A stretch of 62,153 nt of DNA, taken from contig DASTMB010000053.1 in the NCBI GenBank assembly GCA_035714365.1, forward strand, positions 1-62,153. The letters are read 5' to 3'. The translations under genes and the position numbers were made by a program. Below, piece after piece: positions 2,863-53,394 of the stretch (position 1 is the first letter of the stretch; each line of letters starts with the position of its first letter). The notes under the pieces were generated by a model. The model saw only the letters and a list, made by a program, of their open reading frames with translations. It searched no databases and had not been told where the DNA came from. This DNA comes from Mycobacteriales bacterium (GTDB lineage: Bacteria; Actinomycetota; Actinomycetes; BP-191).

Positions 2863-3279
2863 TCAGGCCGCGCCGAAGAAGCGCGGGAGGTCCTGCGCGG
2901 GGCAGCGGTTGACGACGACGTCGAGGCCCGCCGCGCGCGCCCGCGCCAGTGCCGCGTCGTCCGGGAACACGCCGAGCTGCGTCCACACCGCCCGCGCCCC
3001 GATCGCGACCGCCTCGTCCACGTGCGCGCCGGCCAGCTCGGACCGGCGGAACAGGTCGACCACGTCGACCGGCCGCGGCACGTCCGCCAGCGTCGGGTAG
3101 CAGCGCAGGCCGAGGACGGTGTCGTACGACGGGTTCACCGGGATGACGTCGTAGCCGCGGGAGAGCAGGAGCTGCGCGACGCCGTGGCTGGACCGCCACG
3201 GGTCGTCGGACGCGCCGACGACGGCCCAGCAACGGGCCTCGGCGAGGACGCGGCGGGCGGTGGCGTCGTCGGTGCGCAT
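2863..3279 (-). CDS. CoA-binding domain protein (YccU-like)
   Basis: 138-aa single-domain protein of the CoA_binding_2 (YccU) family: a Rossmann fold resembling the CoA-binding domain of succinyl-CoA synthetase. The diagnostic stretch is WAVVGASDDPWRSSHG followed by LLSRGYDVIPVNP; later AVWTQLGVF and a near-terminal VVNRCPAQD are also family features. The ATG at 3279 gives the usual length. The gene ends 3 nt from the convergent secreted-protein gene stop. Function in the cell is poorly defined for the family; binding of CoA or an acyl-CoA is known from structural homologues and is inferred here. Confidence 0.9.
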   Translation of the reverse strand: MRTDDATARRVLAEARCWAVVGASDDPWRSSHGVAQLLLSRGYDVIPVNPSYDTVLGLRCYPTLADVPRPVDVVDLFRRSELAGAHVDEAVAIGARAVWTQLGVFPDDAALARARAAGLDVVVNRCPAQDLPRFFGAA

Positions 3280-4013: not shown

Positions 4014-4628
4014 TCACACCGCGACGTGCAGCCCCAGCGCCGCGAGCGACGCGACGAGGTCGTCGCGGCCGGTGAACACCTCCGCGTGCATGCCCGCGCG
4101 CCGCGCGCCGTCGACGTTCTCCGGCCGGTCGTCGGTGAAGAAGCACTCGCCCGGCTCGACGCCCAGCACGTTCGCCGCGTGCGCGAAGATCGCGACGTCC
4201 GGCTTGGCCATCCGCAGCTCCGCCGAGCAGAACACCACGTCGAACGTCTCCACCAGGTCGTGGTGGACGAGGTGCTCGCGGAGCTGGTCGGTGGCGTTGG
4301 ACAGCAGCGCCACCGTGACCTGCTCGCGCACCGCCGCGACCAGCTCGACCATCGACCGGTCGACCCGGCCGGCGTAAGAGAAGTAGATCTCGGCGGCACG
4401 GTCGGCGCCGGGGCCGTGCTCGGCGACGAGCGCGCGGCCGACGGCCGCCGCCCATTCGCGGGCGGTCACGTCGCCGACCTGCGTCGCCATGAACTCCGGG
4501 ATCGCGTACGCGACCCGCTCGATCGCGCCCTCCGGCAGCCCGGCCGCCGCCTCGCCGGCGCGCGCGCCGGCGGAGTCCCAGTGCCGGATGACGCCGTCCA
4601 TGTCGAACAGGACGGCCTTGACCGTCAT
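4014..4628 (-). CDS. HAD-superfamily hydrolase
   Basis: 204-aa HAD phosphatase of subfamily IA type. Motif I is VLFDMDGVIRHWD (nucleophile Asp9 and general acid Asp11), motif II is LLSNATD, motif III Lys is in RMAKPDVAIF, and motif IV is CFFTDDRPENV with the metal-binding acids. A helical cap separates motifs I and II. It probably hydrolyses a small phosphorylated metabolite; the substrate is not predictable. The ATG at 4628 overlaps the TGA of the upstream 146-aa gene by ATGA, so it is translationally coupled to the lower-GC three-gene insert although its own base composition is that of the host. Confidence 0.9.
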   Translation of the reverse strand: MTVKAVLFDMDGVIRHWDSAGARAGEAAAGLPEGAIERVAYAIPEFMATQVGDVTAREWAAAVGRALVAEHGPGADRAAEIYFSYAGRVDRSMVELVAAVREQVTVALLSNATDQLREHLVHHDLVETFDVVFCSAELRMAKPDVAIFAHAANVLGVEPGECFFTDDRPENVDGARRAGMHAEVFTGRDDLVASLAALGLHVAV

Positions 4629-5065
4629 GCTGCCGTTACAGGATCGGATTCAACCGAGTTATTGTTAGCCTTTGGCGGGCGGGGCCTAGATTGAATCCAG
4701 TCCGTCCGAATTGCTCCCGGCTGCGCCGTCATCGCGCGAAACTGCATTGCGTTGATGAAGGGTCTGGGCAGGTGGCGCCTATCGTTCATCCAGCGTTCGC
4801 GCTGTACCTTCTTACGAGCCTTGATTGCGAGGTCGCGCCTTGCCTGGTCGGGGCCAGCAAGTCCTGGCTGCGGCTGGAACGCGTCATGGTTAGAGGCTAT
4901 CGCATCGTTCAGAGAGGCTAGCGCAGCACGCTGCGCGACGAGCGACGCCAGGATTTCACTCTCTACCTCCCTGGCGAAAGCCCCACTCTTTAGCAGCCGG
5001 CGAAGAGTTGAAATAAAAGTGCAGCCGGAAGCCATCACTGCCGCAACAAGTAAAGCGTGACTCAT
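4625..5065 (-). CDS. Hypothetical protein in low-GC insert (third gene)
   Basis: 146-aa protein of unknown function. It starts with a hydrophobic stretch (MSHALLVAAVMASGCTFIS) that could be a weak membrane anchor or a lipoprotein-like signal, followed by an amphipathic helix (REVESEILASLVAQRAAL) and a basic, Pro- and Asn-rich tail. Its ATG overlaps the TGA of the preceding 75-aa gene (ATGA, 5062-5065), and its own TGA overlaps the ATG of the HAD hydrolase. Base composition is about 50-58% G+C, far below the flanks, and codons ending in A/T are common, which suggests acquisition by transfer. No homologue is recognised. Confidence 0.65.
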   Translation of the reverse strand: MSHALLVAAVMASGCTFISTLRRLLKSGAFAREVESEILASLVAQRAALASLNDAIASNHDAFQPQPGLAGPDQARRDLAIKARKKVQRERWMNDRRHLPRPFINAMQFRAMTAQPGAIRTDWIQSRPRPPKANNNSVESDPVTAA

Positions 5066-5289
5066 TTGCGGCGTTCCTTCAGAACTGCTTGGAATTCATC
5101 ATGAGTACGGGTCATGCCTTCTTTCAGTGTCTCCAGCATTTGCGTCGACAGTCGGGCGTGGGACTTCAGTCCTTCCAGGAGCGTATCACGTCCCTTCGCG
5201 GCTTTACCTTCTATAGCGTAATTCACAACCGCCGTGGCGAGGCTGAGTGCGGTAGTTGCTAAAGCGGCATAGTCCGCACCGCTACTCAT
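5062..5289 (-). CDS. Small membrane protein in low-GC insert (second gene)
   Basis: 75-aa protein with one predicted membrane helix near the N-terminus (YAALATTALSLATAVVNYAI) followed by a charged helical region (KAAKGRDTLLEGLKSHARL ... KEGMTRTHDEFQAVLKERRK). The ATG at 5289 is chosen because it overlaps the upstream stop in ATGAGTAG, the usual coupled arrangement; an in-frame ATG at 5346 lies deep inside the upstream gene and is less likely. The size and the order hydrophobic helix then charged tail are shared by many holin-like or membrane-anchoring proteins, but nothing more specific is visible. Low G+C matches its two neighbours. Confidence 0.65.
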   Translation of the reverse strand: MSSGADYAALATTALSLATAVVNYAIEGKAAKGRDTLLEGLKSHARLSTQMLETLKEGMTRTHDEFQAVLKERRK

Positions 5290-5896
5290 GGCGCTCTCGA
5301 AGCTGGATGCGAACTTGGTCAGCCACGTCCAAGCCCCTGCTGGCATCGTTCAGCAGTTGACGCAGTTCAAGCTCTGGTGCCTGGAATACCACGGTTGACG
5401 CTCCCCCCGCTACCGGTTCATCAAATTCTAGACGAACCAGTACGACCGGAAAAAAAGAAAGCCCATTGCTATCTTCTCTTACACGCGCGTCCACGCTAAC
5501 CGAGGCCTCGATCAGGGCTGGCAGCATCGACCACTGCGCGCGGTAATCTTCGAATACGTTGGGATCGGCCCCTTCGGCAAGCAGCCTTCGGATGAGCAGT
5601 TCGGCATCCTCGCTGAGAAAGACACGAAGAACTTCATCGTTCCGTATCAAGTTGAACAGTTCATCGCAGAAGCCTTCGACCGACTTACTGCTCGATGCAT
5701 GGACCCGCAGAGCGGCCCAGGCGGCCAGTATGGAATCGTCAAGCATCCAACTCTCAATGTCTTGCAGATTCGTACCTCGTTCTACATCGATGGCATTAAG
5801 TTTCAGCATCTGGTCTTCTGGCAGGCGAAGCAATCGCCCTACAGCCACCCGGAATGCCGAATCAGCCCAGTTGGTGTGAAGTGCCTCGATTGTCAT
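5282..5896 (-). CDS. Hypothetical protein in low-GC insert (first gene)
   Basis: 204-aa predicted soluble protein with no family I can name. It is acidic and mixed alpha/beta, with a helical N-terminal half (WADSAFRVAVGRLLRLPEDQ, FLSEDAELLIRRLLAEG) and a strand-rich C-terminal half (SFFPVVLVRLEFDEP, STVVFQAPELELRQLL). It starts 12 nt after the stop of the Ugd-like gene, so it may be read from that promoter, and it overlaps the next gene by 8 nt. G+C is about 48-60% in sampled lines against about 70% or more outside. The composition change coincides with the gene ends, which indicates that the three genes arrived as a unit. Confidence 0.7.
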   Translation of the reverse strand: MTIEALHTNWADSAFRVAVGRLLRLPEDQMLKLNAIDVERGTNLQDIESWMLDDSILAAWAALRVHASSSKSVEGFCDELFNLIRNDEVLRVFLSEDAELLIRRLLAEGADPNVFEDYRAQWSMLPALIEASVSVDARVREDSNGLSFFPVVLVRLEFDEPVAGGASTVVFQAPELELRQLLNDASRGLDVADQVRIQLRERHE

Positions 5897-5908
5897 AAGA
5901 GTCCTTCG

Positions 5909-7231
5909 CTACGGGCGGCCGAGGGCGCGGTAGGTCCAGCCGGCGTCGCGCCAGAGCTGCGGGTCGAGCGCGTTGCGGCCGTCGACGATGTTGCGCTCGC
6001 GCACCACCTCGGAGAGCACGGATGGGTCCATGTCGCGGAACTCGCGCCACTCGGTGAGGTGCAGCACGACGTCGGCGTCGCGGGCCGCCTCCGGCGCGCT
6101 GCCGGCGTAGGCGAGCTCGGGGTGGATGCGGCGGGCGTTCTCGACGGCGGCCGGGTCGTAGACCGTCACCTCGGCGTCCTGGCGGCGGATCGCGCTCGCG
6201 ACGTCGAGGGCGGGGGAGTCGCGGATGTCGTCGGAGTTCGGCTTGAACGCCGCCCCCAGCACCGCCACCCGCTTGCCGGCGAACGCGCCGCCGACCAGCT
6301 CGCACGCGAGGTCGACCATGCGGGCGCGCCGGCGCTGGTTGATCGCGTCGACCTCGGCGAGGAACGACAGCGCCTGGTCCACGCCGAGCTCCTCGGCGCG
6401 CGCCATGAACGCGCGGATGTCCTTCGGCAGGCAGCCGCCGCCGAAGCCGAGCCCCGCGTGCAGGAACCGCCCGCCGATGCGGGTGTCGTACGACAGCGCC
6501 TCGGAGAGCTTCTTGACGTCGGCGTGGACGACCTCGCACACCTCGGCCATGGCGTTGATGAACGAGATCTTCGTGGCGAGGAACGCGTTGGCGCTGACCT
6601 TGACCAGCTCGGCCGTCGGGTAGTCGGCGACGACGACGGGCGTGTCCTTGGCGAGGAGCGGCGCGAACACCTCGCGCAGCACCGCCTCGCCGCGCCCGCC
6701 CGGGCGGACGCCGAACACCAGCCGGTCCGGCGACAGCGTGTCCTCGACCGCGAACCCCTCGCGGAGGAACTCCGGGTTCCACGCGAGCTCGACGGCGTCG
6801 CCGCCGGGCGCCGCGGCCGCGAGCCGGGCGGCGAGCCGCTCCGCGGTGCCGACCGGGACGGTGGACTTGCCGACGACGAGGCACTCGCGGGTGAGGTGGG
6901 GGGCCAGCCCGTCGACGACGGCGTCGACGTAGGAGAGGTCGGCGGCGTTGCTGCCGGCCTGCTGCGGGGTGCCGACGCAGAGGAAGTGGACGTCGCCGAA
7001 CTCGCCCGCCTCGGCGTACGAGGTCGTGAACCGCAGCCGCCCGGACTCGACGTTCTTGCGGAGCAACGGCTCCAGCCCCGGCTCGAAGAACGGCACCTCG
7101 CCCGCCCGCAGCGAGGCGATCTTGGCCTCGTCCACGTCCATGCCGAGGACCTCGTAGCCGAGCTCGGCCATGCAGACGGCGTGGGTCGCGCCGAGGTAGC
7201 CGGTGCCGAGGACGGTGAGTCGGTACGTCAT
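5909..7231 (-). CDS. ugd: UDP-glucose/GDP-mannose dehydrogenase family protein
   Basis: 440-aa NAD-dependent nucleotide-sugar dehydrogenase that oxidises the C6 hydroxyl of a UDP- or GDP-sugar in two steps, most often UDP-glucose to UDP-glucuronate. The N-terminal Rossmann motif is VLGTGYLGATHAVCMAELG; the catalytic Cys sits in GFGGGCLPKDIRAF; the C-terminal domain has VLGAAFKPNSDDIRDSP. The start is the ATG at 7231 rather than 7261, because the fold begins there and a TACGCT box lies 7 nt upstream. Glucuronate would be a plausible building block of the surface polymer encoded elsewhere in this window. Substrate between UDP-Glc and others is not certain. Confidence 0.92.
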   Translation of the reverse strand: MTYRLTVLGTGYLGATHAVCMAELGYEVLGMDVDEAKIASLRAGEVPFFEPGLEPLLRKNVESGRLRFTTSYAEAGEFGDVHFLCVGTPQQAGSNAADLSYVDAVVDGLAPHLTRECLVVGKSTVPVGTAERLAARLAAAAPGGDAVELAWNPEFLREGFAVEDTLSPDRLVFGVRPGGRGEAVLREVFAPLLAKDTPVVVADYPTAELVKVSANAFLATKISFINAMAEVCEVVHADVKKLSEALSYDTRIGGRFLHAGLGFGGGCLPKDIRAFMARAEELGVDQALSFLAEVDAINQRRRARMVDLACELVGGAFAGKRVAVLGAAFKPNSDDIRDSPALDVASAIRRQDAEVTVYDPAAVENARRIHPELAYAGSAPEAARDADVVLHLTEWREFRDMDPSVLSEVVRERNIVDGRNALDPQLWRDAGWTYRALGRP

Positions 7232-7238
7232 GCGCCCG

Positions 7239-7244
7239 AGCGTA
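7239..7244 (-). promoter_or_regulatory. -10 box of leaderless ugd transcript
   Basis: TACGCT (7244 to 7239 on the minus strand) ends 7 nt before the ATG at 7231; no Shine-Dalgarno sequence is seen between them. Confidence 0.5.
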
Positions 7245-7257
7245 CCGGGGTCACCGG

Positions 7258-8418
7258 TCACCAGTCGGCGAGGGCCACGTCATCGGGCAGCAGGCGCAGC
7301 CCGGTGCCGGCGTCCCACCGGTAGACCTGGTACCTGTCGGGGCCGTCGCCGGGCGTCGGCGTCGTGACGCCCAGCAGCGCGTGCGCACCGGTCGGGTCGA
7401 ACGTCAGCCACTGCGGCTGCGCACCCACCGGGTACGCGAACAGGGTGCGGCCCGGCCGGCCGGTCACCGGGTCGAGCACCACGAGCCGGATCGGCTCCTC
7501 GCGCAGGCTCTGGTGGTCGACGCAGTGGTACGCGGCGACCAGCTCGCCGGTCGGCAGGTAGGCGGGCGTCGCCGAGTAGCAGGTCGTGCCGGGGTGGAGT
7601 GGGACGCCGCTCTCGTCGAGGTTGGGCCGGTCCACCCGGAAGTCCACCGGCAGCGACGGGAGCGGCGTCGGGGCGGCGGTGGTGTCGATGCGGTGCACGA
7701 ACTGGTCGCCGTACGCGAACGCGATGTACCGGCCGTCCGGCGACCACGTGAGGTCGACGACGGAGTAGTTGCGCAGGTCGCCGGTGACGGGCCAGACCTG
7801 GTCCCGGCCGGACGCGAGGTCCCGGACGTGGAGCTCGTGGGTCCCGCCGCAGATGGACTCGTCCGGCCCGTCCGCCCAGATCGAGTACGCGATCCGGCGG
7901 CCGTCCGGGGAGACCGCCAGACCGGTGACGTCGCCGGCCAGGTCGAGCACCGGAGCGGACCCGCCGGAGGGGGCGGAGAGCCGGTACAGCCGGCTGCGGC
8001 ACTCGTCCAGGTTCGCCCACGCGGCGTAGTACGTCCGGTCGTCCCCGACGGACGCGACGGCGCGGAGCACGTCCCGGTCGGCCGGCGCGCCCATCCGCGT
8101 GACCGGCTGCCCGGCGAGATCGTCGGCACCGACCACGGCCGCCTCGAAGGTGCGCTCCGAGAGGTGCCGGACGGTGACGACGGTACGGGGCACGCCCGCG
8201 GCCGGCTCCGCCGGGTCGCGGCCCGGGGCGCGTACCGCGACCGCGACGAGGCCCACGACCGCTGCGGTCGCGGCGGCGGCACCGATCGGGCGGACCCAGC
8301 GGGTGAGGCGGCGGCGGGCGCGGCGGCGCAGGACCTCGGCGTACGCGTCCGGGTCGTGGGCGACGTGCGCGACGCGCGCGTTCAGGGCGTCCCGCAGGAC
8401 CGTGTCGAGGTCGTTCAT
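7258..8418 (-). CDS. Membrane-anchored beta-propeller partner of the sigma factor (putative anti-sigma)
   Basis: 386-aa protein with a cytoplasmic N-terminus (MNDLDTVLRDALNARVAHVA), one membrane helix at about residues 46-65, and a large extracellular part with WD40/TolB-like propeller blades (VTGLAVSPDGRRIAYSIW, VVDLTWSPDGRYIAFAYG). The ATG overlaps the stop of the sigma-factor gene by ATGA (8415-8418), so the two are made together. This topology fits a transmembrane regulator or sensor that could hold the sigma factor at the membrane; no classic anti-sigma zinc motif is seen in the short cytoplasmic part. A paralogous pair lies at 13248-14866. Confidence 0.8.
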   Translation of the reverse strand: MNDLDTVLRDALNARVAHVAHDPDAYAEVLRRRARRRLTRWVRPIGAAAATAAVVGLVAVAVRAPGRDPAEPAAGVPRTVVTVRHLSERTFEAAVVGADDLAGQPVTRMGAPADRDVLRAVASVGDDRTYYAAWANLDECRSRLYRLSAPSGGSAPVLDLAGDVTGLAVSPDGRRIAYSIWADGPDESICGGTHELHVRDLASGRDQVWPVTGDLRNYSVVDLTWSPDGRYIAFAYGDQFVHRIDTTAAPTPLPSLPVDFRVDRPNLDESGVPLHPGTTCYSATPAYLPTGELVAAYHCVDHQSLREEPIRLVVLDPVTGRPGRTLFAYPVGAQPQWLTFDPTGAHALLGVTTPTPGDGPDRYQVYRWDAGTGLRLLPDDVALADW

Positions 8419-8933
8419 CGGATCGGCTCCAGGGTCCGGCGGAGCGCGGCCATGCCGCGCGAGGTGTGGGACTTCACGGCCCCCGTCGACAGGCCCATCG
8501 CGGCGGCGACCTCGGACTCGCTGAGGTCGGCCCAGTACCGCAGGACCAGCGCCTCGCGCTGCCGCGGCGACAGGCCGCGCATCGCGTCGAGCACCGCCCG
8601 CTGGTCGGCGCGCAGCAGCACGTCGTCCTCCGCCGACGGCAGCGCCCGGTCGTCCGGACGCTGGTGCAGCCGCGCGGTGCGCAACCGGCGCAGCCGCGAC
8701 CGCGACAGGTTCAGGACGGTCGCGCGCAGGTACGCCAGCGCGCGGTCCGGGTCGGCGAGCGTCCGGCCGTGCAGCCGCGCGAACGCCTCCTGGACGATGT
8801 CCTCCGCGGTTTCCCGCGAGCCGTCGTTCACGAGGATCGCCAGCGCCAGCAGCCGCCGGTAGTGGGCGTTGAACAGCTCGGGCAGGCCACGTGCGTCGTC
8901 CCGTGGCTCCACGAACCCCTCCGCGGTCGTCAT
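8415..8933 (-). CDS. SigE-family ECF RNA polymerase sigma factor
   Basis: 172-aa sigma-70 factor of the ECF type (SigE family). Region 2 is LFNAHYRRLLALAILVNDG ... AEDIVQEAFARLHGR; region 4 is LSPRQREALVLRYWADLSES, AAAMGLSTGAVKSHTSRGM. The ATG at 8933 is preferred to 8951 by the family N-terminus. It is followed by an overlapping propeller gene. The promoter carries GTAAACCG-N14-CGTCTA, an arrangement repeated in front of the paralogous sigma gene at 14866, so it is likely autoregulated. Which genes it controls outside this locus is unknown. Confidence 0.92.
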   Translation of the reverse strand: MTTAEGFVEPRDDARGLPELFNAHYRRLLALAILVNDGSRETAEDIVQEAFARLHGRTLADPDRALAYLRATVLNLSRSRLRRLRTARLHQRPDDRALPSAEDDVLLRADQRAVLDAMRGLSPRQREALVLRYWADLSESEVAAAMGLSTGAVKSHTSRGMAALRRTLEPIR

Positions 8934-8942
8934 CACGCCCCG

Positions 8943-8970
8943 TAGACGCAATCGGTGCGAATCGGTTTAC
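8943..8970 (-). promoter_or_regulatory. Putative autoregulated ECF promoter
   Basis: On the minus strand: GTAAACCG (8970-8963), 14 nt, then CGTCTA (8948-8943), ending 9 nt before the sigma-factor ATG. The same two blocks with the same 14-nt spacing precede the sigma gene at 14866. Confidence 0.55.
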
Positions 8971-20098: not shown

Positions 20099-21163
20099 AT
20101 GAAGGCTCTCGTCCTCTCGGGCGGCGCCGGTACGCGCCTGCGCCCGATCACGCACACGTCCGCGAAGCAGCTCGTGCCGATCGCGAACAAGCCCACGCTG
20201 TTCTACGGCCTGGAGGCGATCCGCGACGCGGGCGTCACCGACGTCGGGATCATCGTCGGCGACACCGCGCCGGAGATCATGGCCGCCGTCGGCGACGGCA
20301 GCGCGCTCGGCATCTCCGTCACCTACATCCGCCAGGACGCGCCGCTCGGGCTGGCGCACTGCGTGCTCATCGCGCGCGACTTCCTCGGCGACGACGACTT
20401 CGTGATGTACCTCGGCGACAACTTCATCGTCGGGGGCATCACCGAGCTGGTCGACGAGTTCAAGCGGGACCAGCCGGACGCGCAGATCCTGCTGACCAAG
20501 GTCGACAACCCGTCGCAGTTCGGCGTCGCCGAGCTCGGCCCGGACGGCCGCGTGCAGTCGCTCGTGGAGAAGCCGAAGGAGCCGCGCAGCGACCTCGCGC
20601 TCGTCGGCGTCTACATGTTCGGCCCGTCGATCCACGAGGCGGTCGGCGCCATCAAGCCGAGCGCCCGCAACGAGCTGGAGATCACCGACGCGATCCAGTG
20701 GCTGGTCGACGCGGGCCGCGACGTGCGCCCGCACCTCGTCACCGGCTACTGGAAGGACACCGGCCGCCTCGAGGACATGCTCGAGTGCAACCGCAAGGTG
20801 CTGGAGTCGCTGGAGCCGGCCGTGCACGGCACCGTCGACGCCGAGTCGCGGCTGGTCGGCCGCGTCGTGGTCGAGGAGGGCGCGTCGATCGTCCGCTCGA
20901 CCGTGCGCGGCCCGGCGATCATCGGGCGCGGCACGCGGATCGTGGACACCTACGTGGGGCCGTTCACCTCGATCTACCACTCCTGCCTGGTCGAGCGGAC
21001 CGAGGTCGAGCACTCGATCGTGCTGGAGTCGACGCACATCGCCGACATCCAGCGGATCGAGGACTCGCTCATCGGCAAGGAGGTCGAGCTCTCCCGCTCG
21101 GTCACCCAGCCCAAGGCTCTGCGGCTCATGCTCGGCGACCACAGCCGGGTCGCCATCCCGTGA
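20099..21163 (+). CDS. rmlA: Glucose-1-phosphate thymidylyltransferase, long form
   Basis: 354-aa nucleotidyltransferase making dTDP-glucose from glucose-1-phosphate and dTTP, first step of dTDP-L-rhamnose synthesis. N-terminal signature LVLSGGAGTRLRPITHTSAK and KQLVPIANKPTLFYGLEAI, followed by YIRQDAPLGLAHCVLIA and the metal-binding MYLGDNF. Unlike the 290-aa E. coli type, it has a C-terminal left-handed beta-helix of hexapeptide-like repeats (about residues 245-340: AESRLVGRVVVEEGASIVRS). This long form is common in actinomycetes, often in antibiotic or wall gene clusters. The next gene's GTG overlaps its stop (21160-21163). Confidence 0.92.
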   Translation: MKALVLSGGAGTRLRPITHTSAKQLVPIANKPTLFYGLEAIRDAGVTDVGIIVGDTAPEIMAAVGDGSALGISVTYIRQDAPLGLAHCVLIARDFLGDDDFVMYLGDNFIVGGITELVDEFKRDQPDAQILLTKVDNPSQFGVAELGPDGRVQSLVEKPKEPRSDLALVGVYMFGPSIHEAVGAIKPSARNELEITDAIQWLVDAGRDVRPHLVTGYWKDTGRLEDMLECNRKVLESLEPAVHGTVDAESRLVGRVVVEEGASIVRSTVRGPAIIGRGTRIVDTYVGPFTSIYHSCLVERTEVEHSIVLESTHIADIQRIEDSLIGKEVELSRSVTQPKALRLMLGDHSRVAIP

Positions 21164-21948
21164 GCGGCGGCGGGGGGCCGTTCGACCTCTACGACCCGGA
21201 GTCCGGCGTCGGGCCGCCGCCGGAGCCGCTGGCCGCCCCGCCGGCCCGCCGCCGGCGCGGGGGCGGCCGGCCCGCCGTGGCCGTGCTCGCGTTCGTCCTC
21301 GTGACCGCGGGGGTGCTGGCGCTGCGCGCCGCGGGCGGCGTGCGGCACGCCGATCCGCTCCCGCCGTCGCCGCGGCACGAGGCCCTGGCGCCGCTCGCGG
21401 CGTTCAAGCCGGTGACGTACACCGGCAGGGGGCCGAAGACGATCCGGCTCCAGCGGCCGGCGCCGGGCGCGATGCTGCTGGCGGTCCAGGGCGGCGGCGG
21501 CGACGAGGAGTTCACCGTCACCTCGCGGAGCGCCGACGGCGTCGAGATCGCGACGCTGGTGTGGGCGAGGCACGCGGCGTTCGACGGCGTCGTCCCGCTG
21601 GACTTCGGCGAGGACATCGTCGGCAACGCCGTGGCGCTCGACGTCGCGTCCCGGCACCCGTGGACGTTGCGGCTGCTCCCGGTGTCGACGGCGCCGGAGC
21701 TCGGCGCGCGGGGCTACCGCGGTCACGACATGCAGGTGCTCCACCACACCGGCGACACGGTGACGTACCGGGTGTCCGGCAACGACCGCGCCGAGCAGTT
21801 CGGCGTGTTCGTCGGCCACGACACGGTGCACTGGCCGTCCGAGCCGATCCTGGAGGTCGAGCCGGTCCACGACCTGCTGCTGACCGTGCACGACGGCGAC
21901 TACCTGTACGTGTTCGCGGCCGGCGGCTGGACGATCACCCCCCGGTAG
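21160..21948 (+). CDS. Membrane-anchored hypothetical protein
   Basis: 262-aa protein translationally coupled to rmlA (GTGA overlap). A Pro/Gly-rich cytoplasmic head ends in a membrane helix (AVAVLAFVLVTAGVLALRAA, about residues 39-58). The extracellular part (residues 75-262) is strand-rich: TYTGRGPKTIRL, AMLLAVQGGGGDEEFTV, WTLRLLPVST, DTVTYRVSGNDRAEQFGV, and DYLYVFAAGGWTITPR. It looks like one beta-sandwich, with two similar halves possible, but no family is recognised. The stop overlaps the stop of the convergent acetyltransferase-like gene by 14 bp. Coupling to rmlA suggests a role linked to rhamnosylated polymer at the surface. Confidence 0.72.
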   Translation: MSGGGGPFDLYDPESGVGPPPEPLAAPPARRRRGGGRPAVAVLAFVLVTAGVLALRAAGGVRHADPLPPSPRHEALAPLAAFKPVTYTGRGPKTIRLQRPAPGAMLLAVQGGGGDEEFTVTSRSADGVEIATLVWARHAAFDGVVPLDFGEDIVGNAVALDVASRHPWTLRLLPVSTAPELGARGYRGHDMQVLHHTGDTVTYRVSGNDRAEQFGVFVGHDTVHWPSEPILEVEPVHDLLLTVHDGDYLYVFAAGGWTITPR

Positions 21949-22765
21949 CGCGGCGGCGGGCGATCTCGCCGGCGCCGAAGTCGACGAGCTCGCGCTGGCG
22001 CATCAGCCGGGCCGTGCCCTCGCCCGCCGGGCCGGCCCGCACGCCCGCCCCGCTCGCCTCGAACGCCGCCCCGACGTCCGGGAAGTCCGAGTCGTCGGTC
22101 TCCCACTCCGGGAACGTCACCCACTCGCGCCGCCCGCCGGCCAGCACCGCCGCGCCCTGCTGCTCGACCCGCTTCGCCGGATACTCCGCGCGGGCCTCGG
22201 CGAGGTGCAGCGAGGAGTTGTTGACGTGCCCCACGCCGAGCAGCAGCACGTGCGCGTCCAGCTCGTACAGGCGGGCGAGCGGCGACTCCTCGCCGAGGCC
22301 GAACGGCAGCGGGTGCGGCTCCAGCACGCGTTCGGCGAGCGGGCCCACCGCGCCGAACGACAGGTGCGGGTGCGCCGACCGGCGCGCGCCGGGCCAGCGC
22401 AGCACGCAGTCCGCGACCGCGCCCATCTGCCGGGTCGACGCGGTCCGCGGGTCGAACGCCGGCGTCTCCGCGCGGATCACCGGCCACCACGCCTCCGGGA
22501 CCGGCGGGTGCCGCCACAGCGACGGCTCCGTCCGCCCCGTGGAGAACGCCGGCACGACCAGCGTGCCGTCCGGCCCCAGCACCGCGAGCAGCGCCTCGAC
22601 CACCGCCTCCGGGCCGCCCGCGACCCAGCCGAGCGCGCTCAGCCGCGAGTGCGCCAGCACGACGCCGCCCTCCGGCACGCCGAGCGCGCGCAGGTCCGCG
22701 ACCAGCCGCCGGACCGTCACCGGCGTCCCCTGCGCCGTCCCCGCCACGACCTCCGCCTCACCCAC
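21935..22765 (-). CDS. AAC(3)-family N-acetyltransferase
   Basis: 276-aa protein of the antibiotic N-acetyltransferase (AAC(3)/YokD) superfamily, which uses acetyl-CoA to acetylate an amine. Family landmarks: VVLAHSRLSALGWVAGG, LGPDGTLVVPAFSTGR, ARRSAHPHLSFGAVG with the active-site His, and LGEESPLARLYELDAHVL followed by GVGHVNNSSLHLAE. Length is normal. GTG start at 22765 with TACGGT 6 nt upstream. Chromosomal members in actinobacteria need not confer drug resistance; with rml genes on both sides, a role in modifying an amino sugar is equally possible. Substrate not predictable from sequence. Confidence 0.88.
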   Translation of the reverse strand: MGEAEVVAGTAQGTPVTVRRLVADLRALGVPEGGVVLAHSRLSALGWVAGGPEAVVEALLAVLGPDGTLVVPAFSTGRTEPSLWRHPPVPEAWWPVIRAETPAFDPRTASTRQMGAVADCVLRWPGARRSAHPHLSFGAVGPLAERVLEPHPLPFGLGEESPLARLYELDAHVLLLGVGHVNNSSLHLAEARAEYPAKRVEQQGAAVLAGGRREWVTFPEWETDDSDFPDVGAAFEASGAGVRAGPAGEGTARLMRQRELVDFGAGEIARRRATGG

Positions 22766-22771
22766 GGCGGC

Positions 22772-22777
22772 ACCGTA
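22772..22777 (-). promoter_or_regulatory. -10 box of leaderless acetyltransferase transcript
   Basis: TACGGT on the minus strand ends 6 nt before the GTG at 22765. Confidence 0.5.
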
Positions 22778-22851
22778 CCGGCAGGAAGGGCGGCGCGGGC
22801 GCCGAAGTGCGGGGGTGGACGCACACCCCCTCCTCCTTCAGGAGCCCAGCC

Positions 22852-23553
22852 GTGAAGTTCCGTTCCCTCGCGTTCGTCGCGACCCCCGCGGTGGCCGTTC
22901 TCGCCACCGTCGCGCACGCCGCGGCCCCCGCCGCCCCGCCCAAGCCGCTCGTCGTCACCGACGCCGCCGGCGACGCCAACGCGATCAACGGCGCCGGCGT
23001 CGTGTCCGGCGGCGGCGTGCCGGAGGGCGTGCCCACCGACCCCGCCAGTATGGCGGCCTACGACATCCGCTCGGTGACGTTCGCCGCCACCGGCAAGGTC
23101 ACCAGCAAGAAGGTCCGCGGCAAGACGGTGAAGACGTTCGGCTGCACCGGCTACACCGTGGCGATGGAGATGGCGGGCACGCCGTCGACCACCGCCACGC
23201 TGTACCGCGTGCAGGCGCAGACGCCGTTGCACTCGACGTTCTGGCTCCAGTTCTCGAACCCGGCGGGCGGCGAGACGTCGTCGGTCCTGCGCTTCAACGT
23301 CCCGGCGTCCCCGACCGACCCGACGGCGACGACGAAGAGCGTCCCGCTCGTCAACCCGGCGAAGGTCGTCGGCAACAAGGTGGTCTTCACCGTCACCGCC
23401 GCCGACCTCGGCAAGGCCGGCGAGAAGCTCGGCCGCGCCACCATCACGAACATCGGCGCCGACGTGCGCACCGCCACGCCGCGCGCCACCGCCCCGATGT
23501 GGGACCAGCTCGTCACCGACGGGTCGCAGGTCTGGCGGGTCTGCCCGCAGTAG
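22852..23553 (+). CDS. Secreted hypothetical protein
   Basis: 233-aa exported protein. Signal peptide VKFRSLAFVATPAVAVLATV with cleavage near AHA-AA at about residue 24. The mature part begins LVVTDAAGDANAINGAGVV, a D-x-x-GD motif that opens several secreted beta-sandwich families, then DIRSVTFAATGKVTSKKVRG, TFWLQFSNPAGGE, and KVVFTVTAADLGKAGEKLG. The same ordered pattern occurs in the proteins at 2278-2859, 37765-38694 and 41779-42999. GTG start at 22852 with GGAG about 8 nt upstream. A strong hairpin follows 7 nt after the stop. Function unknown; a carbohydrate-binding or DOMON-like fold is a reasonable but untested guess. Confidence 0.8.
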   Translation: MKFRSLAFVATPAVAVLATVAHAAAPAAPPKPLVVTDAAGDANAINGAGVVSGGGVPEGVPTDPASMAAYDIRSVTFAATGKVTSKKVRGKTVKTFGCTGYTVAMEMAGTPSTTATLYRVQAQTPLHSTFWLQFSNPAGGETSSVLRFNVPASPTDPTATTKSVPLVNPAKVVGNKVVFTVTAADLGKAGEKLGRATITNIGADVRTATPRATAPMWDQLVTDGSQVWRVCPQ

Positions 23554-23560
23554 CCGCCGC

Positions 23561-23603
23561 GGGCGCGGTTCCCGGCCGCCACGCGCAACCGGGAACCGCG
23601 CCC
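23561..23603 (+). terminator. Strong hairpin terminator
   Basis: A perfect 15-bp stem (23561-23575 with 23589-23603) and 13-nt loop lie 7 nt past the stop of the secreted-protein gene and before rmlB. No T-run follows. Confidence 0.65.
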
Positions 23604-23652
23604 CGGAGTCTGGGAGGATGACCGCGCTCGTCCCCCGACCCCGAGGACTCCC

Positions 23653-24627
23653 ATGCGACTGCTCGTCACCGGTGGCGCCGGCTTCATCGGCTCGCAGTAC
23701 GTCCGTTCGCTGCTCGCCGAGCGCGACGACGTCGAGGTCACCGTCTACGACAAGCTCACCTACGCCGGCAACCTTGCCAACCTCGCGCCCGTTGCCGACC
23801 ACCCGCGGTACCGGTTCGTGCAGGGGGACATCTGCGACGCGACGCTGCTCGCCGAGGTGCTGCCCGGCCACGACGCGGTCGTGAACTTCGCCGCCGAGAC
23901 GCACGTCGACCGGTCGATCAGCGGCGCCGCCGACTTCGTCGTCACCAACGTCCTCGGCGCGCAGACGCTGTTCGACGCGGCGTTGCGGCTGGACGTGCCG
24001 CGCGTCGTGCACGTCTCCACGGACGAGGTCTACGGCTCGATCCCGGAGGGGGAGTTCCGGGAGACCGACGTCCTCGAGCCGAACTCGCCGTACTCCGCCG
24101 CGAAGGCCGGCGCCGACCTCATCGCGCGGGCGTACCACGTCACCCACGGGCTCAACATCAGCATCACCCGCTGCTCCAACAACTACGGGCCGTTCCAGTT
24201 CCCGGAGAAGGTCATCCCGCTGTTCGTGACCAACCTCATCGACGGCAAGAAGGTCCCGCTCTACGGCGACGGCCTCAACGTCCGGGACTGGCTCTACGTG
24301 GACGACCACTGCCGCGGCATCCAGCTCGTCCTCGACCAAGGCGCGCCCGGCGAGGTCTACAACATCGGCGGCGGCGTCGAGCTCACCAACAAGGAGCTCA
24401 CCCAGCGGCTGCTCGACGCGTGCGGCGCGACGTGGGACTCGGTCGAGTACGTTGAGGACCGCAAGGGCCACGACCGCCGCTACGCCATCGACGACTCGAA
24501 GCTGCGCGGGCTCGGCTACGCGCCCCGGACGACGTTCGACCAGGGGCTCGCCGAGACGGTGCGGTGGTACCGCGACAACGAGGCCTGGTGGCGCCCGCTC
24601 AAGGAGAAGGCCGCGCTGCCGGGCTAG
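23653..24627 (+). CDS. rmlB: dTDP-glucose 4,6-dehydratase
   Basis: 324-aa short-chain dehydrogenase/reductase (extended) converting dTDP-glucose to dTDP-4-keto-6-deoxyglucose, second step of dTDP-rhamnose synthesis. NAD-binding motif LLVTGGAGFIGSQYV, catalytic STDEVYG with the Asp-Glu pair typical of the dehydratase, and YSAAKAGADLIARAYH giving the Tyr-x-x-x-Lys; then ITRCSNNYGPFQFPEKVIPL and NVRDWLYVDDHCRGI. ATG at 23653 with GAGGA 7 nt upstream. It stands alone between a hairpin and the convergent methyltransferase. Confidence 0.96.
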   Translation: MRLLVTGGAGFIGSQYVRSLLAERDDVEVTVYDKLTYAGNLANLAPVADHPRYRFVQGDICDATLLAEVLPGHDAVVNFAAETHVDRSISGAADFVVTNVLGAQTLFDAALRLDVPRVVHVSTDEVYGSIPEGEFRETDVLEPNSPYSAAKAGADLIARAYHVTHGLNISITRCSNNYGPFQFPEKVIPLFVTNLIDGKKVPLYGDGLNVRDWLYVDDHCRGIQLVLDQGAPGEVYNIGGGVELTNKELTQRLLDACGATWDSVEYVEDRKGHDRRYAIDDSKLRGLGYAPRTTFDQGLAETVRWYRDNEAWWRPLKEKAALPG

Positions 24628-32903: not shown

Positions 32904-34219
32904 CGGCGGGTGACCAGCCAGCGTTCGAGCTCCGCGCGGGGCACGGTGCGCGAACGGTCGATCTCCCGGCGGCGGCGCAGCATCGCCGGGAGGAGCCGCA
33001 GGTAGGACAGGCAGACGCGGACCTGCAGCCGCGTCTGCGACAGGTCGGGCCGCGCCCGCGCGGCGAGCCCCTGGCGCAGCGTGCGGCGCGCGATCGACGC
33101 GACGGTGAGCGGGTAGCGCAGCACCTGGCGCACGGCGAGCGGGCGGGAGGCGTTCTTGGTGAGCATGAGCAGCCGGTTGCGCTGGACGTGGAACTGGAAC
33201 ACCGGCGACGTCTCGCCGCTGCTCGCCGAGTGGTGGTGGCGCAGCACGGCGGTGGGCTCGTACGCGATCCGCCAGCCGGCCGCGCGGACCCGCCAGGACA
33301 GGTCGGTGTCCTCGTAGTAGAGGAAGAAGTCGTCGTCGAACAGGCCGACGGTGTCGAGCACCTCGCGGCGGAACGCCGCGCCGTTGCCGCAGAACGAGAA
33401 CACCTCCTCGCGCGCGTCGTACTGCCCCTCGTCGACCTCCTGGAAGCCGCGGTCGGCGCCGTACCCCTCGCGCAGCACGATGCCGCCGGCGTTGTTGACG
33501 ACGTCGAGCCGCGGCACGTCGCCCGGCAGGTCGAACGACGCCTCCCCGCCCCCGGCGGTCGCGCGCAGCGTGACCGCGCCGCCGTCCCACGACAGCGTCA
33601 CGTCCTTGTCCCGCTCGGCCGCCCAGGTGAACGCGACGCGGTGCGGCCCCGCGCTGTCCGGCAGCGGCAGCAACAGCTCGCCCTCCGGCCGGGTCCACGC
33701 CCAGGCGCCCGGCTCGTACCCCCAGGACAGGCGCTCCCAGAGCGGCTTCGCCGGCTCGCCGCCGACGGTGACGGCGTGCACGCGGACACCGAGCTCGCGC
33801 GGGTCTGCGCCGCCCGGCGTGAACCCCTCCGTGCGCAACGACAGCCGCGCGAACCGCGGCAGGAACACGATCTTCGGCGTCACCACGCCCACGTCCGGCT
33901 GCTCGTCCAGCGCGGCCAGCGTCTGCCGCAGCCAGGACGGCTCGGGGACGGCGTCGTTGTTGAGCAGCACGACGAACGGCGTCGTGCAGGTGCGCAGCGC
34001 GGCGTTGTTGCCGCCGGCGAAGCCGAGGTTGGCGCCAGTCTCGACCACCCGCACCCACGGGTAGTCACGGCGCAGCAGCTCGACCGAGCCGTCGGTGGAG
34101 GCGTTGTCGGCGACGACGGTCTCGAAGTCGCTCACGTCCTGCTTGGCGAGCGCGTCGAGGCAGGGGCCGAGCAGGTGGGCGCCGTTCCAGTTGACGATGA
34201 CGACCGTCGCGCGGGTCAC
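32900..34219 (-). CDS. Glycosyltransferase family 2 protein with inserted beta domain
   Basis: 439-aa GT-A glycosyltransferase. The N-terminus TRATVVIVNWNGAHLLGPCL, VADNASTDGSVELLRRDYP and GANLGFAGGNNAALR is typical of rhamnosyl- and galactofuranosyltransferases (WbbL/GlfT1 type). The normal LLNNDAVPEP metal-binding loop is at about residue 87. Residues about 125-258 are an inserted beta module (FTPGGADPRELGVRV, WAWTRPEGELLLPLP) before the acceptor part FCGNGAAFRREVLDTVGLF and YYEDTDLSWRVRAAGW. The C-terminus is basic and amphipathic, suited to the inner membrane face. GTG at 34219 overlaps the wzt stop. Confidence 0.9.
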   Translation of the reverse strand: MTRATVVIVNWNGAHLLGPCLDALAKQDVSDFETVVADNASTDGSVELLRRDYPWVRVVETGANLGFAGGNNAALRTCTTPFVVLLNNDAVPEPSWLRQTLAALDEQPDVGVVTPKIVFLPRFARLSLRTEGFTPGGADPRELGVRVHAVTVGGEPAKPLWERLSWGYEPGAWAWTRPEGELLLPLPDSAGPHRVAFTWAAERDKDVTLSWDGGAVTLRATAGGGEASFDLPGDVPRLDVVNNAGGIVLREGYGADRGFQEVDEGQYDAREEVFSFCGNGAAFRREVLDTVGLFDDDFFLYYEDTDLSWRVRAAGWRIAYEPTAVLRHHHSASSGETSPVFQFHVQRNRLLMLTKNASRPLAVRQVLRYPLTVASIARRTLRQGLAARARPDLSQTRLQVRVCLSYLRLLPAMLRRRREIDRSRTVPRAELERWLVTRR

Positions 34220-35412
34220 TGCCCGGCCCCGGTGGTGCGGGTGACGTAGCGGACGTCCACGATGCCGGCGGAGGAGTTGCCGCGGATGCGGAACGTGTCG
34301 TGGAACCGCCCGGTCGCCAGCGTGTCGCCGGTGTCCGGGTCGGTGACGCCGACGGCGACGATGAACGACCCCATCACCGGCGGCAGCTCCGGCACGACGA
34401 AGTCGACCCAGTACCGGCCCGGCCGGTTGGGCACGACGGCGCTGCCGTCCTGGCCCATCACCCAGATCGGGATGTCGCCGGCGCCGAGCACGACGACCTG
34501 CACCTGCCCGCCGATCGGCGCGGTGCCGTCGAGCACCTCGACCTCGACGCGGATCGCCAGCGGCTCGCCGCCGAAGAACCCGTCCTTCGGGTCGCCGCCG
34601 GGGACGTCGGACACGATCGCGCCGTGGATGTAGGCGCCACCGGCCGGCTCGGCGTCCTCCGGGATCACGACCGGCTGCGACGACGTGCCGAGGATGCCGC
34701 GCAGCGTGCCCGTCGCGAAGCCGGGGTCGCCGATGTACTTCACGTTGCCGTGGTCGAGCACGACCGTGCGGGTGCAGATGTTCTCGACCAGATCGAGCGA
34801 GTGGCTGACGAACAGGATCGTCCGGCCGTCCTTCTGGAACTCGTCGATCTTCGCCAGGCACTTGCGCTGGAACGCCTCGTCGCCGACCGCCAGCACCTCG
34901 TCCACCAGCAGGATGTCCGGGTCGATGTGCACGGCCACCGCGAAGCCGAGCCGGACGTACATGCCGGACGAGTAGTTCTTGACCTGGTTGTCGATGAACG
35001 GCTCGAGCTCGCTGAACGCCACGATCTCGTCGAAGTGCCGGTCCACCTCCTTGCGCGACAGGCCGAGGAGGGAGGCGTTGAGATAGACGTTGTCGCGGCC
35101 GGAGAGCTCGCCGTTGAAGCCGGCTCCCAGCTCCAGCAACGACGCGATGCGGCCGTTGACGGTGACCGTGCCGGAGGTCGGCTGGAGGATGCCGGCGAGC
35201 AGCTTCAGCGTCGTGCTCTTGCCGGAGCCGTTCGCGCCGATCAGCCCGACCGTCTCGCCGCGGTCGATCTCGAGCGACAGGTCGCGGACCGCCCAGAACT
35301 CCTCGGCCTCCTGGCCGCGGTTGACGAACCGTTCCTTGAGGCTGGTCGCGCGCTTGCGGTGGATGAGGAACCGCTTCGAGACGTCGATCGCCGAGATCGC
35401 GGCGCCGCCCAC
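34216..35412 (-). CDS. wzt: ABC transporter ATP-binding protein for polysaccharide export
   Basis: 398-aa ATPase of the Wzt/TagH type. Walker A is GLIGANGSGKSTTLKLLAG, the signature is KNYSSGMYVRLGFAVAV, Walker B is DILLVDEVLAVGDEAF. After the 240-residue ATPase comes a C-terminal beta domain of about 140 residues (DGFFGGEPLAIRVEVEV, IWVMGQDGSAVVPNRPGRYW, FHDTFRIRGNSSAGIV), similar to Wzt_C, which in O9a-type systems recognises the finished glycan end. It powers export of the lipid-linked glycan with Wzm. The GTG at 35412 follows wzm by one base. Confidence 0.95.
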   Translation of the reverse strand: MGGAAISAIDVSKRFLIHRKRATSLKERFVNRGQEAEEFWAVRDLSLEIDRGETVGLIGANGSGKSTTLKLLAGILQPTSGTVTVNGRIASLLELGAGFNGELSGRDNVYLNASLLGLSRKEVDRHFDEIVAFSELEPFIDNQVKNYSSGMYVRLGFAVAVHIDPDILLVDEVLAVGDEAFQRKCLAKIDEFQKDGRTILFVSHSLDLVENICTRTVVLDHGNVKYIGDPGFATGTLRGILGTSSQPVVIPEDAEPAGGAYIHGAIVSDVPGGDPKDGFFGGEPLAIRVEVEVLDGTAPIGGQVQVVVLGAGDIPIWVMGQDGSAVVPNRPGRYWVDFVVPELPPVMGSFIVAVGVTDPDTGDTLATGRFHDTFRIRGNSSAGIVDVRYVTRTTGAGQ

Positions 35413-50695: not shown

Positions 50696-51790
50696 GTGAC
50701 GCGGGTCGGCTTCCTGCTGGAGCAGTGCCTCGCGCCCGTCCCCGGGGGGACGGCGCGGTACTCGCGCGAGCTCGCCGCCGCCCTGGCCGCGACCGCGCCG
50801 GACGGGTGCGGCGTCGACGGGTGGACGGCGTTGCACGCCTCGACGGCGGCCGCGGTCGTGCCGGGCGTGGCGGGGCCGCACCGGCTGCCGCTCGGCCGCC
50901 GGCCGCTGATCGCGGCCTGGGAGCGCGGCGTCGGGCCGGTGCCGCGCGCCGACCTCGTGCACGCGCCGACGCTGCTCGCGCCGCCCCGGCGCGGCCGGCC
51001 GCTCGTCGTGACGGTCCACGACGCCGTGCCGTGGACCCACCCGGAGACGCTGACGCAACGCGGCGTGGCCTGGCACCGGCGGATGGGCGCGCGGGTGGCC
51101 GCGTCCGCCGACCTGGTGATCGTGCCGACGGCGGCGGTGCGCGCGGACCTGGCGGAGTTCCTCGACATCGGCGACCGGGTGCGGGTCGTGCCGGAGGGCG
51201 CCGACACGATCGCCGTCCCGGCCGACGCCGCCGCCCGGCGCGACCGGCTCGGCCTGCCGGAGCGGTACCTCTGCACGCTCGCCACGCTGGAGCCGCGCAA
51301 GGGCCTCGACGTCGCGCTGTCGGCGCTGGCCGAGGCCCCGGCGCCGGACCTGCCGCTCGTCGTGGTCGGCCAGCCCGGCTGGGGCGGCGTCGACCTCGAC
51401 GCGACCGCCGGCTCGCTCGGCCTCGCCGCCGACCGGGTGCGCGCGCTCGGGCGGCTGCCCGACGACGACCTGGCCGCCGTCCTCGCCGGCGCGCTGGCGC
51501 TGGTGGCGCCGTCGCGGGCGGAGGGGTTCGGGCTGCCGGTCGCCGAGGCGATGGCGGCGGGCGTGCCCGTCGTCTGCTCGGACGCCGCCGCCCTGGTCGA
51601 GGTCACCGCCGGCGCCGCGCTGACCGTCCCCGTCGGCGACGTGCTCGCGCTCGCCGAGGCGCTGGGGGAGGTCGCGACCGACGAGGCGTTGCGCGCCCGG
51701 CTCGTCGCGGCCGGGCTCGCCCGCGCGGCGGACCTGACCTGGCGCAACGCCGCCGAGGCCACCTGGGCGGTGTACGGGGAGCTGCTGTGA
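50696..51790 (+). CDS. Glycosyltransferase family 4 protein
   Basis: 364-aa GT-B glycosyltransferase starting with GTG 4 nt after the SpoIID gene. N-lobe: TRVGFLLEQCLAPVPGGTAR, ADLVHAPTLLAPP, VVTVHDAVPWTHPETL; C-lobe: CTLATLEPRKGLDVALSAL, VVVGQPGWGGVDL, and the donor-binding APSRAEGFGLPVAEAMAAGV. It is similar to the GT4 at 52270 and to the one at 31815, pointing to mannosyl- or rhamnosyl-type transfer. Its TGA overlaps the GTG of the GNAT gene. Confidence 0.92.
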   Translation: MTRVGFLLEQCLAPVPGGTARYSRELAAALAATAPDGCGVDGWTALHASTAAAVVPGVAGPHRLPLGRRPLIAAWERGVGPVPRADLVHAPTLLAPPRRGRPLVVTVHDAVPWTHPETLTQRGVAWHRRMGARVAASADLVIVPTAAVRADLAEFLDIGDRVRVVPEGADTIAVPADAAARRDRLGLPERYLCTLATLEPRKGLDVALSALAEAPAPDLPLVVVGQPGWGGVDLDATAGSLGLAADRVRALGRLPDDDLAAVLAGALALVAPSRAEGFGLPVAEAMAAGVPVVCSDAAALVEVTAGAALTVPVGDVLALAEALGEVATDEALRARLVAAGLARAADLTWRNAAEATWAVYGELL

Positions 51791-52197
51791 CGGTCGCCCC
51801 CCTCACGCCCGACCGCTACGACGCCGCCGTCGCGCTCTGGCACGAGGCCGGGCTGACCCGGCCGTGGAACGACCCGCACGACGACCTGCGCCGGGCGGTG
51901 GACGGCCCCGCCTCCACCGTGCTCGGCGCCGTCGACGACGGGCGGCTGGTCGGCACCGCGATGGTCGGCCACGACGGGCACCGCGGCTGGGTCTACTACC
52001 TCGCCGTCGCGACCGACCGGCGGCGCCACGGCGTCGGCACGGCGCTGATGCGCGCCTGCGAGGAGTGGGTCGTCGCGCGGGGCGTCCCGGCGTTGATGCT
52101 CATGGTCCGGCACGGCAACGAGGCCGCCGCCGGCTTCTACGAACGCCTCGGCTACGGCCGGTCCGAGGTGAACGTCTACGCCCGCCGGTTGGACTAA
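51787..52197 (+). CDS. GNAT acetyltransferase (YpeA-like)
   Basis: 136-aa GCN5-related acetyltransferase, similar to YpeA. VTVAPLTPDRYDAAVALWHE at the N-terminus, GRLVGTAMVGHDGHRGWVYY, the acetyl-CoA loop VATDRRRHGVGTALMRACE (R-x-x-G-x-G/A), and HGNEAAAGFYERLGYGRSEV at the C-terminus. GTG at 51787 overlaps the upstream TGA. It lies between two GT4 genes; an amino-sugar substrate is possible, but YpeA-type enzymes are poorly characterised. Confidence 0.88.
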   Translation: MTVAPLTPDRYDAAVALWHEAGLTRPWNDPHDDLRRAVDGPASTVLGAVDDGRLVGTAMVGHDGHRGWVYYLAVATDRRRHGVGTALMRACEEWVVARGVPALMLMVRHGNEAAAGFYERLGYGRSEVNVYARRLD

Positions 52198-52269
52198 CGG
52201 CGTCGGAACGGCCGCGAGGGGAATAGGCTCAGGGGAGCGGATGGTCCGCCGGAAGGAGCCCGTAGCCAG

Positions 52270-53394
52270 TTGTCCCCGCGCGTGCTGGTGGACGCCACGG
52301 CCGTACCCGCCGACCGTGGCGGCGTCGGGCGTTACGTCGACGGGCTGATCGAGGCGCTGGACCGGGCCGACGCGGACCTGGCTATCGTCTGCCAGCGCGC
52401 CGACGCCGACCGCTACGGCCGCAGCGCCCCGAGCGCGCGGATCGTCGCCGGACCGGCCGCGATCGCGCACCGCCCGGCGCGGCTCGCCTGGGAGCAGACC
52501 GGGCTGCCGATCGTCGCGCAGCAGGTCCAGGCCGACGTCATCCACTCGCCGCACTACACGCTGCCGCTGCGTGCCGGCCGGCCGGTCGTCGTGACGCTGC
52601 ACGACGCGACGTTCTTCAGCGAGCCGGAGCTGCACACGGCGGTCAAGGGCTCGTTCTTCCGCTCCGCGATCCGCACCGCCGTGCGCCGCGCTGCGCGCTG
52701 CATCGTGCCGTCGAAGGCGACCCGCGACGAGATGATCCGCGTGGTCGACGCCGACCCGACCCGGCTGGACGTGGCGTACCACGGCGTCGACCAGGCGATG
52801 TTCCACCCGCCGTCCGAGGCGGAGGTCGCGCGGGTGCAGGGCCGGCTCGGCCTGTCCACCGGCTACGTCGCCTTCCTCGGCATGCTGGAGCCACGCAAGA
52901 ACGTCCCCGCGCTGGTGCGCGCCTGGGTCGCGACCTGCGAGGGCCGCGACGAGCCGCCGGCGCTGGTGCTCGGCGGCGCGGCCGGCTGGGACGAGGACGT
53001 CGACGCGGCCGTCGCCGAGGTGCCCGCCCACCTGCGCTGCCTGCGCCCCGGCTACCTGCCGATCCGCGACCTGCCCGGCTTCCTCGGCGGCGCGCTGGTC
53101 GTCGCCTACCCGAGCCACGGCGAGGGGTTCGGCCTGCCGGTGCTCGAGGCGATGGCCTGCGGCGCGGCGGTGCTGACGACGCCGCGGCTGTCGCTGCCGG
53201 AGGTCGGCGGCGACGCCGTCGCCTACACCGAGCCGGACGTCGGCGCGATCGCGACGGCCCTCGGCGGGCTGCTCGACGACCCCGACCGGCGGGCGCGGCT
53301 CGGCGCGGCCGGCCTCGCCCGCAGCCGGGAGTTCACCTGGGCGGCGAGCGCCGAGGCGCACCTCGCCTCGTACGCCCGCGCCGTCGGTGACTGA
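52270..53394 (+). CDS. Glycosyltransferase family 4 protein
   Basis: 374-aa GT-B glycosyltransferase. N-lobe: RVLVDATAVPADRGGVGRYV, DVIHSPHYTLPL, VVVTLHDATFFSEPELHTAV; C-lobe: VAFLGMLEPRKNVPALVRAW, LGGAAGWDEDVDAAV, and YPSHGEGFGLPVLEAMACGA with the E-x7-E pattern. The start is the TTG at 52270: a GGAAGGAG sits about 11 nt upstream, and no nearer start keeps the N-terminal strand. A TAGGCT box (52224-52229) suggests a separate internal promoter. The stop overlaps the next gene by 8 bp. Confidence 0.9.
   Translation: MSPRVLVDATAVPADRGGVGRYVDGLIEALDRADADLAIVCQRADADRYGRSAPSARIVAGPAAIAHRPARLAWEQTGLPIVAQQVQADVIHSPHYTLPLRAGRPVVVTLHDATFFSEPELHTAVKGSFFRSAIRTAVRRAARCIVPSKATRDEMIRVVDADPTRLDVAYHGVDQAMFHPPSEAEVARVQGRLGLSTGYVAFLGMLEPRKNVPALVRAWVATCEGRDEPPALVLGGAAGWDEDVDAAVAEVPAHLRCLRPGYLPIRDLPGFLGGALVVAYPSHGEGFGLPVLEAMACGAAVLTTPRLSLPEVGGDAVAYTEPDVGAIATALGGLLDDPDRRARLGAAGLARSREFTWAASAEAHLASYARAVGD

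Follow-up and report, generated by a model that had tools for sequence, protein, structure and literature searches.

The locus raises the question of how three small genes of low G+C content came to lie between two G+C-rich host genes, ugd and a HAD-type hydrolase gene, and what their products, hereafter A, B and C, might do. We analysed them within a window of 62,153 nucleotides, the whole stretch of DNA under study. The three overlapping frames delimited by the first-pass annotation hold at their coordinates, all on the minus strand (Table 1), and gene B has in addition a longer open frame, with a 94-residue start at position 5346. The G+C contents of A, B and C are 0.55, 0.54 and 0.58 against 0.736 for ugd and 0.737 for HAD, and the reported shift extends to the third codon position (0.58, 0.53 and 0.61 against 0.99 and 0.98, respectively). 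With flanks at 70-80% G+C, the cassette coincides with the G+C minimum of the window over 1,272 bp, at 0.564 against a mean of 0.748 (sd 0.035), and in 400-bp windows it is the sole stretch below 64%.

Table 1. Positions of the cassette genes, the insertion and the flanking host genes in the window.
Feature	Positions	Strand	Size	Description	Basis
Gene A	5282..5896	-	204 aa		Open reading frame
Gene B	5062..5289	-	75 aa	Borderline N-terminal membrane helix, then amphipathic helix (putative)	Open reading frame, overlaps, hydropathy
Gene C	4625..5065	-	146 aa	Putative N-terminal membrane helix or weak lipoprotein signal, helical stretch, basic tail	
Whole insertion	4628..5911	-	1,284 bp	Precise at the ugd/HAD overlap	Empty-site comparison
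ugd	5909..7261	-		UDP-glucose dehydrogenase, host upstream flank, C-terminus unchanged	Pfam
HAD-type hydrolase gene	4014..4628	-		Host downstream flank, start ATGA common to the C stop	Pfam

The cassette is tightly fitted into the host operon. The stop of A overlaps the start of B by 8 nt, B and C overlap by ATGA, and we confirmed the two couplings to the host that had been noted before, namely the ATGA overlap of C with HAD and the start of A 12 nt past the ugd stop, which is accompanied by an AGGA-type ribosome site. Neither an Rfam RNA nor a terminator was found in or beside the insert, nor was a consensus promoter, in a promoter search that does not cover all promoter types. As no consensus promoter was found between ugd and the cassette, transcription probably starts from the host ugd promoter.

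Comparison of the ugd-HAD junction with relatives revealed an empty site in both of the same-genus genomes searched (G001 and G002), where the ugd stop overlaps the HAD start directly (G001 CCCGTGACGG, G002 CCCATGACGG) and the encoded HAD protein is 76-79% identical to that of the window. In the window, the left junction reads CCCGTAGCGAAGG and the right junction GCAGCATGACGG, such that CCCGTAG at the ugd end and the latter sequence at the HAD start are separated by 1,284 bp, and both flanking proteins are intact with their termini kept. G001 and G002 also keep the surrounding acyl-CoA dehydrogenase, CoA-binding, GAF-like, HAD and ugd genes, and ugd is present in 55 of 60 relatives. Insertion, empty site and deviant composition are thus directly observed, and they strongly support the earlier proposal of a foreign insert that uses the host operon; conservation of the three genes across relatives, which would have spoken against it, is not seen, and none of the genes matches a housekeeping family. 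The near absence of G+C amelioration indicates that the gain was recent, and of a recent horizontal gain we are virtually certain. In agreement with the first reading, no integrase or transposase was found, and comparison with the empty site showed no target duplication at the junctions; terminal repeats were not found either, so that the cassette is not classified as an integrative element or transposon.

Against the profiles of Pfam, NCBIfam, PHROGs and PADLOC, A, B and C scored at chance level only, and none of the three had a match among phages, plasmids or viral contigs; the earlier suggestion of a defence, toxin or phage-derived cassette stays a guess. For A, nothing beyond chance-level rows was detected in the 148 nearest genomes, 396 phylum genomes, 72,556 plasmids, 50,697 phage records or the viral contigs. 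B and C had no relative in anything searched; the weak matches of C in relatives are at chance level, most of them with stop codons. Several weak genome matches (L002, L038-L042 and L058) were rejected as housekeeping or non-coding frames, and a candidate duplication between B and C (HDEFQ/HDAFQ) was likewise discarded, since 5.5% of shuffles were as good. Across 84,980 species genomes, the search yielded a single relative of A, a protein of 217 residues encoded at positions 726-1379 of a 3.5-kb contig labelled Chloroflexi (L003). It is 33% identical to A over the alignment, and the stretch RLEFDEPVAG is identical in both.

The predicted structure of A consists of an all-helical N-terminal half (residues 1-122) followed by a COMM-like strand-strand-strand-helix part (residues 128-203). 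The models of A and its relative both have about eight helices, three strands and a long helix, at a low mean pLDDT of 41 and 49.5, respectively; both were built on the same two-sequence alignment and are therefore not fully independent. This is the order of COMMD proteins, in which an all-helical N-terminal domain precedes the COMM domain, a three-stranded sheet with a capping helix that dimerises by interlocking (PMC6089597). A Foldseek search of the PDB with A placed COMMD chains in all of ranks 1-19; the best of them was 9q6c, a bacterial octameric COMMD-like protein (E 3.6e-6), and human CCC chains came next. The separate model of the relative gave COMMD chains at ranks 1-6, after which the E-value jumps 20-fold, from 0.011 to 0.22. 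Upon structural realignment, the N-terminal half of the relative matched COMMD helical domains best, with Z-scores of 5.4, 5.0 and 4.4, and in the COMM part of A a Z-score of 3.4 was reached by COMM domains and unrelated chains alike. A BFVD fold search gave nothing convincing. The COMMD-like fold of A, which the first reading did not recognise, is well supported. We consider it likely that the COMMD-like architecture of A is real.

As the models are weak, we tested the resemblance separately in sequence, using a profile seeded with the COMM domains of COMMD1, COMMD9, 9za1 and 9za2 and leaving out A and its relative. Among about 2,000 open frames, the relative ranks first and A third, both matched in the correct register, and 13 of 5,000 shuffles (A) and 0 of 5,000 (relative) score as well. 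With smaller seed sets, the signal weakens or vanishes. The alignment contains L, D, P and G positions common to A, the relative and 9za1/9za2; where the first COMM strand carries WRVD, A reads VSVD and the relative LNSD, so that only the D is kept, along with the later P and G, and the tryptophan is missing in both. An hhalign comparison gave a P-value of 0.004 at a probability of only 9%. Neither protein matches PF07258, even at an E-value of 10 and hence short of its curated cut-off. Given no PF07258 match and no COMM tryptophan, we call A COMMD-like and not a member of the COMMD family, with the helical N-terminal domain, three strands and long helix being present in low-confidence models.

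Searching the PDB by sequence with A, A1 or A4 alone retrieved no COMMD, nor did a profile of A and its relative alone, and a human COMMD1 query matched PDB 8f2u over the full length. PF07258 had no match in 40 relatives or in 301 genomes from the phylum of the L003 organism, a result that does not indicate absence, as the control genomes had none either. When the COMM profile was extended by A and its relative, detection of the other human COMMDs became neither clearly better nor clearly worse, and the enlarged profile is therefore not counted as support. Bacterial COMM fragments as queries found nothing in plasmids or viral contigs.

Among known structures, A is closest in length class and architecture to the bacterial COMMD-like or COMM domain-containing proteins 9q6a and 9q6c (Flavobacteriaceae, octamer), 9za1 and 9za2. 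However, identity to 9q6a/9q6c is only about 16%, and 9za1, 9za2, human COMMD1 and COMMD9 all keep the W of WRVD that A lacks; A moreover resides in a small mobile cassette. Human COMMD1-COMMD10 of the CCC/Commander assembly share the two-part architecture, and the COMM-like part of A aligns to COMMD1 and COMMD9, but the human proteins serve eukaryotic endosomal recycling with CCDC22 and CCDC93, partners that the cassette does not have. In chlamydiae, CT584/Cpn0803 has been described as structurally homologous to HN and COMM domains (PMC6089597); it has extra C-terminal helices, and its structure (3q9d) matches the model of the relative only marginally, with a Z-score of 2.1. Characterised COMMD proteins dimerise through the COMM domain and build rings: that of the human CCC complex is decameric (PMC10187114), the bacterial entry 9q6c is octameric, and 9za1 and 9za2 contain eight chains each.

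The gene of the relative lies directly upstream of an Xre/MbcA/ParS antitoxin gene (PF09722, E 2.8e-8), which is followed by a RES-domain toxin gene (PF08808, E 1.1e-20), with frames overlapping or abutting. This arrangement is seen in one short contig, without B or C, and none of the three proteins on it matches a PADLOC component. The likeness to an Xre/MbcA-RES system ends at the pair sitting after the only relative of A, as the window cassette encodes neither Xre nor RES. RES-type toxins deplete NAD in characterised systems (PMC8065639 and PMC11535050). Elsewhere in the genome of the window, away from the cassette, one RES-domain gene lies on contig C41 (32884-33042; 33.5 bits, over the cut-off). 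The L003 contig further encodes, at 2874-3275, a C-terminal sorting-type domain (NPFNP...VYTLTGQLVETL...), which we take to be of the kind known from type IX secretion clades, and the bin assignment of this contig may thus be wrong.

In B, the hydropathy peak is 1.54 (residues 8-26), and in C it is 1.69 (residues 3-21). The initial order of a soluble, a small membrane and a possibly membrane-anchored protein therefore needs softening: B is only borderline hydrophobic, and C, which carries ASGC at residues 12-15 without a preceding K/R, may equally be read as having a weak lipoprotein signal or an N-out membrane anchor. B and C resemble helical partner proteins with a membrane anchor, and their N-terminal hydrophobic stretches and helical charged sequence make a membrane-tethered A-B-C assembly plausible.

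We propose that a lower-GC donor recently supplied the three-gene cassette, which inserted cleanly at the ugd-HAD stop/start overlap. Through its COMM-like C-terminal half, A would dimerise in an intertwined manner and might build a higher ring, the helical N-terminal halves lying on the outside; by homology, some form of oligomer, dimer or ring, is rather probable. B and C would be made by coupled translation, and their N-terminal helices probably anchor or cap the A assembly at the inner membrane, although a membrane-tethered complex of A with B and C is a tentative guess. By analogy with the relative beside an Xre antitoxin and a RES toxin, the module would most likely be an accessory stress or defence device. 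The toxin-antitoxin neighbours of the relative speak for stress or defence rather than metabolism, as do the small size and overlap of the cassette genes and their recent mobility, and yet such a role, taken alone, is a doubtful guess. For the reading as a whole, a horizontally gained, COMMD-like, membrane-tethered accessory cassette for stress or defence, we estimate a probability of roughly 45%.

Among the alternatives, the three genes might together make up a toxin-antitoxin or abortive-infection unit: C or B would be a small membrane-active toxin, A its soluble neutraliser or sensor, and the COMMD-like fold a mere scaffold. Compact overlapping genes, two small hydrophobic proteins, recent mobility and the toxin-antitoxin neighbours of the relative would all fit, but PADLOC, Pfam and PHROG give no match, the hydropathy of B and C is borderline, and beside the relative the toxin is a RES protein that has an antitoxin of its own; we regard this unit as unlikely. 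Somewhat more unlikely is that A is an unrelated two-domain protein whose resemblance to COMMD arose by chance in models with pLDDT of 41 and 49.5, a view that agrees with the missing Pfam match and the weak Z-scores. Against such chance, two sequences of 33% identity each place only COMMD chains at the top, and the independent sequence profile agrees. It is improbable that the genes are a functionless remnant of a phage or integrative element, either morons or cargo: the foreign composition, the precise insertion and the lack of relatives in the genus are compatible with it, whereas three intact frames with tight overlaps, standing without element genes or terminal repeats, and the blank searches of phages, viral contigs and plasmids argue otherwise. 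An assembly chimera, to which a draft of 98 contigs and a sharp GC shift might point, is exceedingly improbable, since the breakpoints fall exactly on the ugd stop and HAD start codons, the flanking proteins are intact, the ATGA overlap is kept, and a single contig, syntenic with relatives, carries both flanks.

In a study from 2023, neither Bacteria nor Archaea yielded sequence homologues of COMMD proteins, and the family origin was placed on the eukaryotic stem (PMC10187114). The bacterial COMMD-like octamers appear in PDB entries released from 2025, so bacterial COMMD-like proteins, earlier believed missing, have become known only recently. What is new here is that a divergent COMMD-like gene is carried, together with two small partner genes, by a mobile insertion that is both precise and recent. 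With its cassette newly moved and its relative located next to a toxin-antitoxin pair, the gene offers a concrete and cheap handle on the function and spread of bacterial COMMD-like proteins. A stronger version, a mobile and horizontally spread COMMD-like module of bacteria in which two dedicated small proteins hold a COMM ring at the inner membrane for stress or phage defence, is a long shot; if true, it would suggest a bacterial source, and possibly a defence past, for the eukaryotic Commander ring.

The host genes around the cassette show features of their own. An ECF-type sigma factor gene (8415-8951) is followed by a gene for a probable anti-sigma or beta-propeller protein (7258-8418) directly upstream of ugd. 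The latter protein diverges fast, with 35% identity in the genus versus 74-84% for its neighbours. The sigma factor and its partner gene are kept in the neighbourhood in G001; in G002 they lie on another contig beside a second ugd. Of the two ugd genes of G002 (contigs C4 and C29), one is followed by a dTDP-glucose dehydratase-like start, and the other, partial at a contig end, precedes HAD in the empty-site arrangement. Judged from sequence start and codon composition only, frames of nucleotidyltransferase, dehydratase, ABC transporter and glycosyltransferase-like type lie at 20099-24627, 34216-35412 and 50696-54286 of the window, and the wider region resembles a surface polysaccharide locus.
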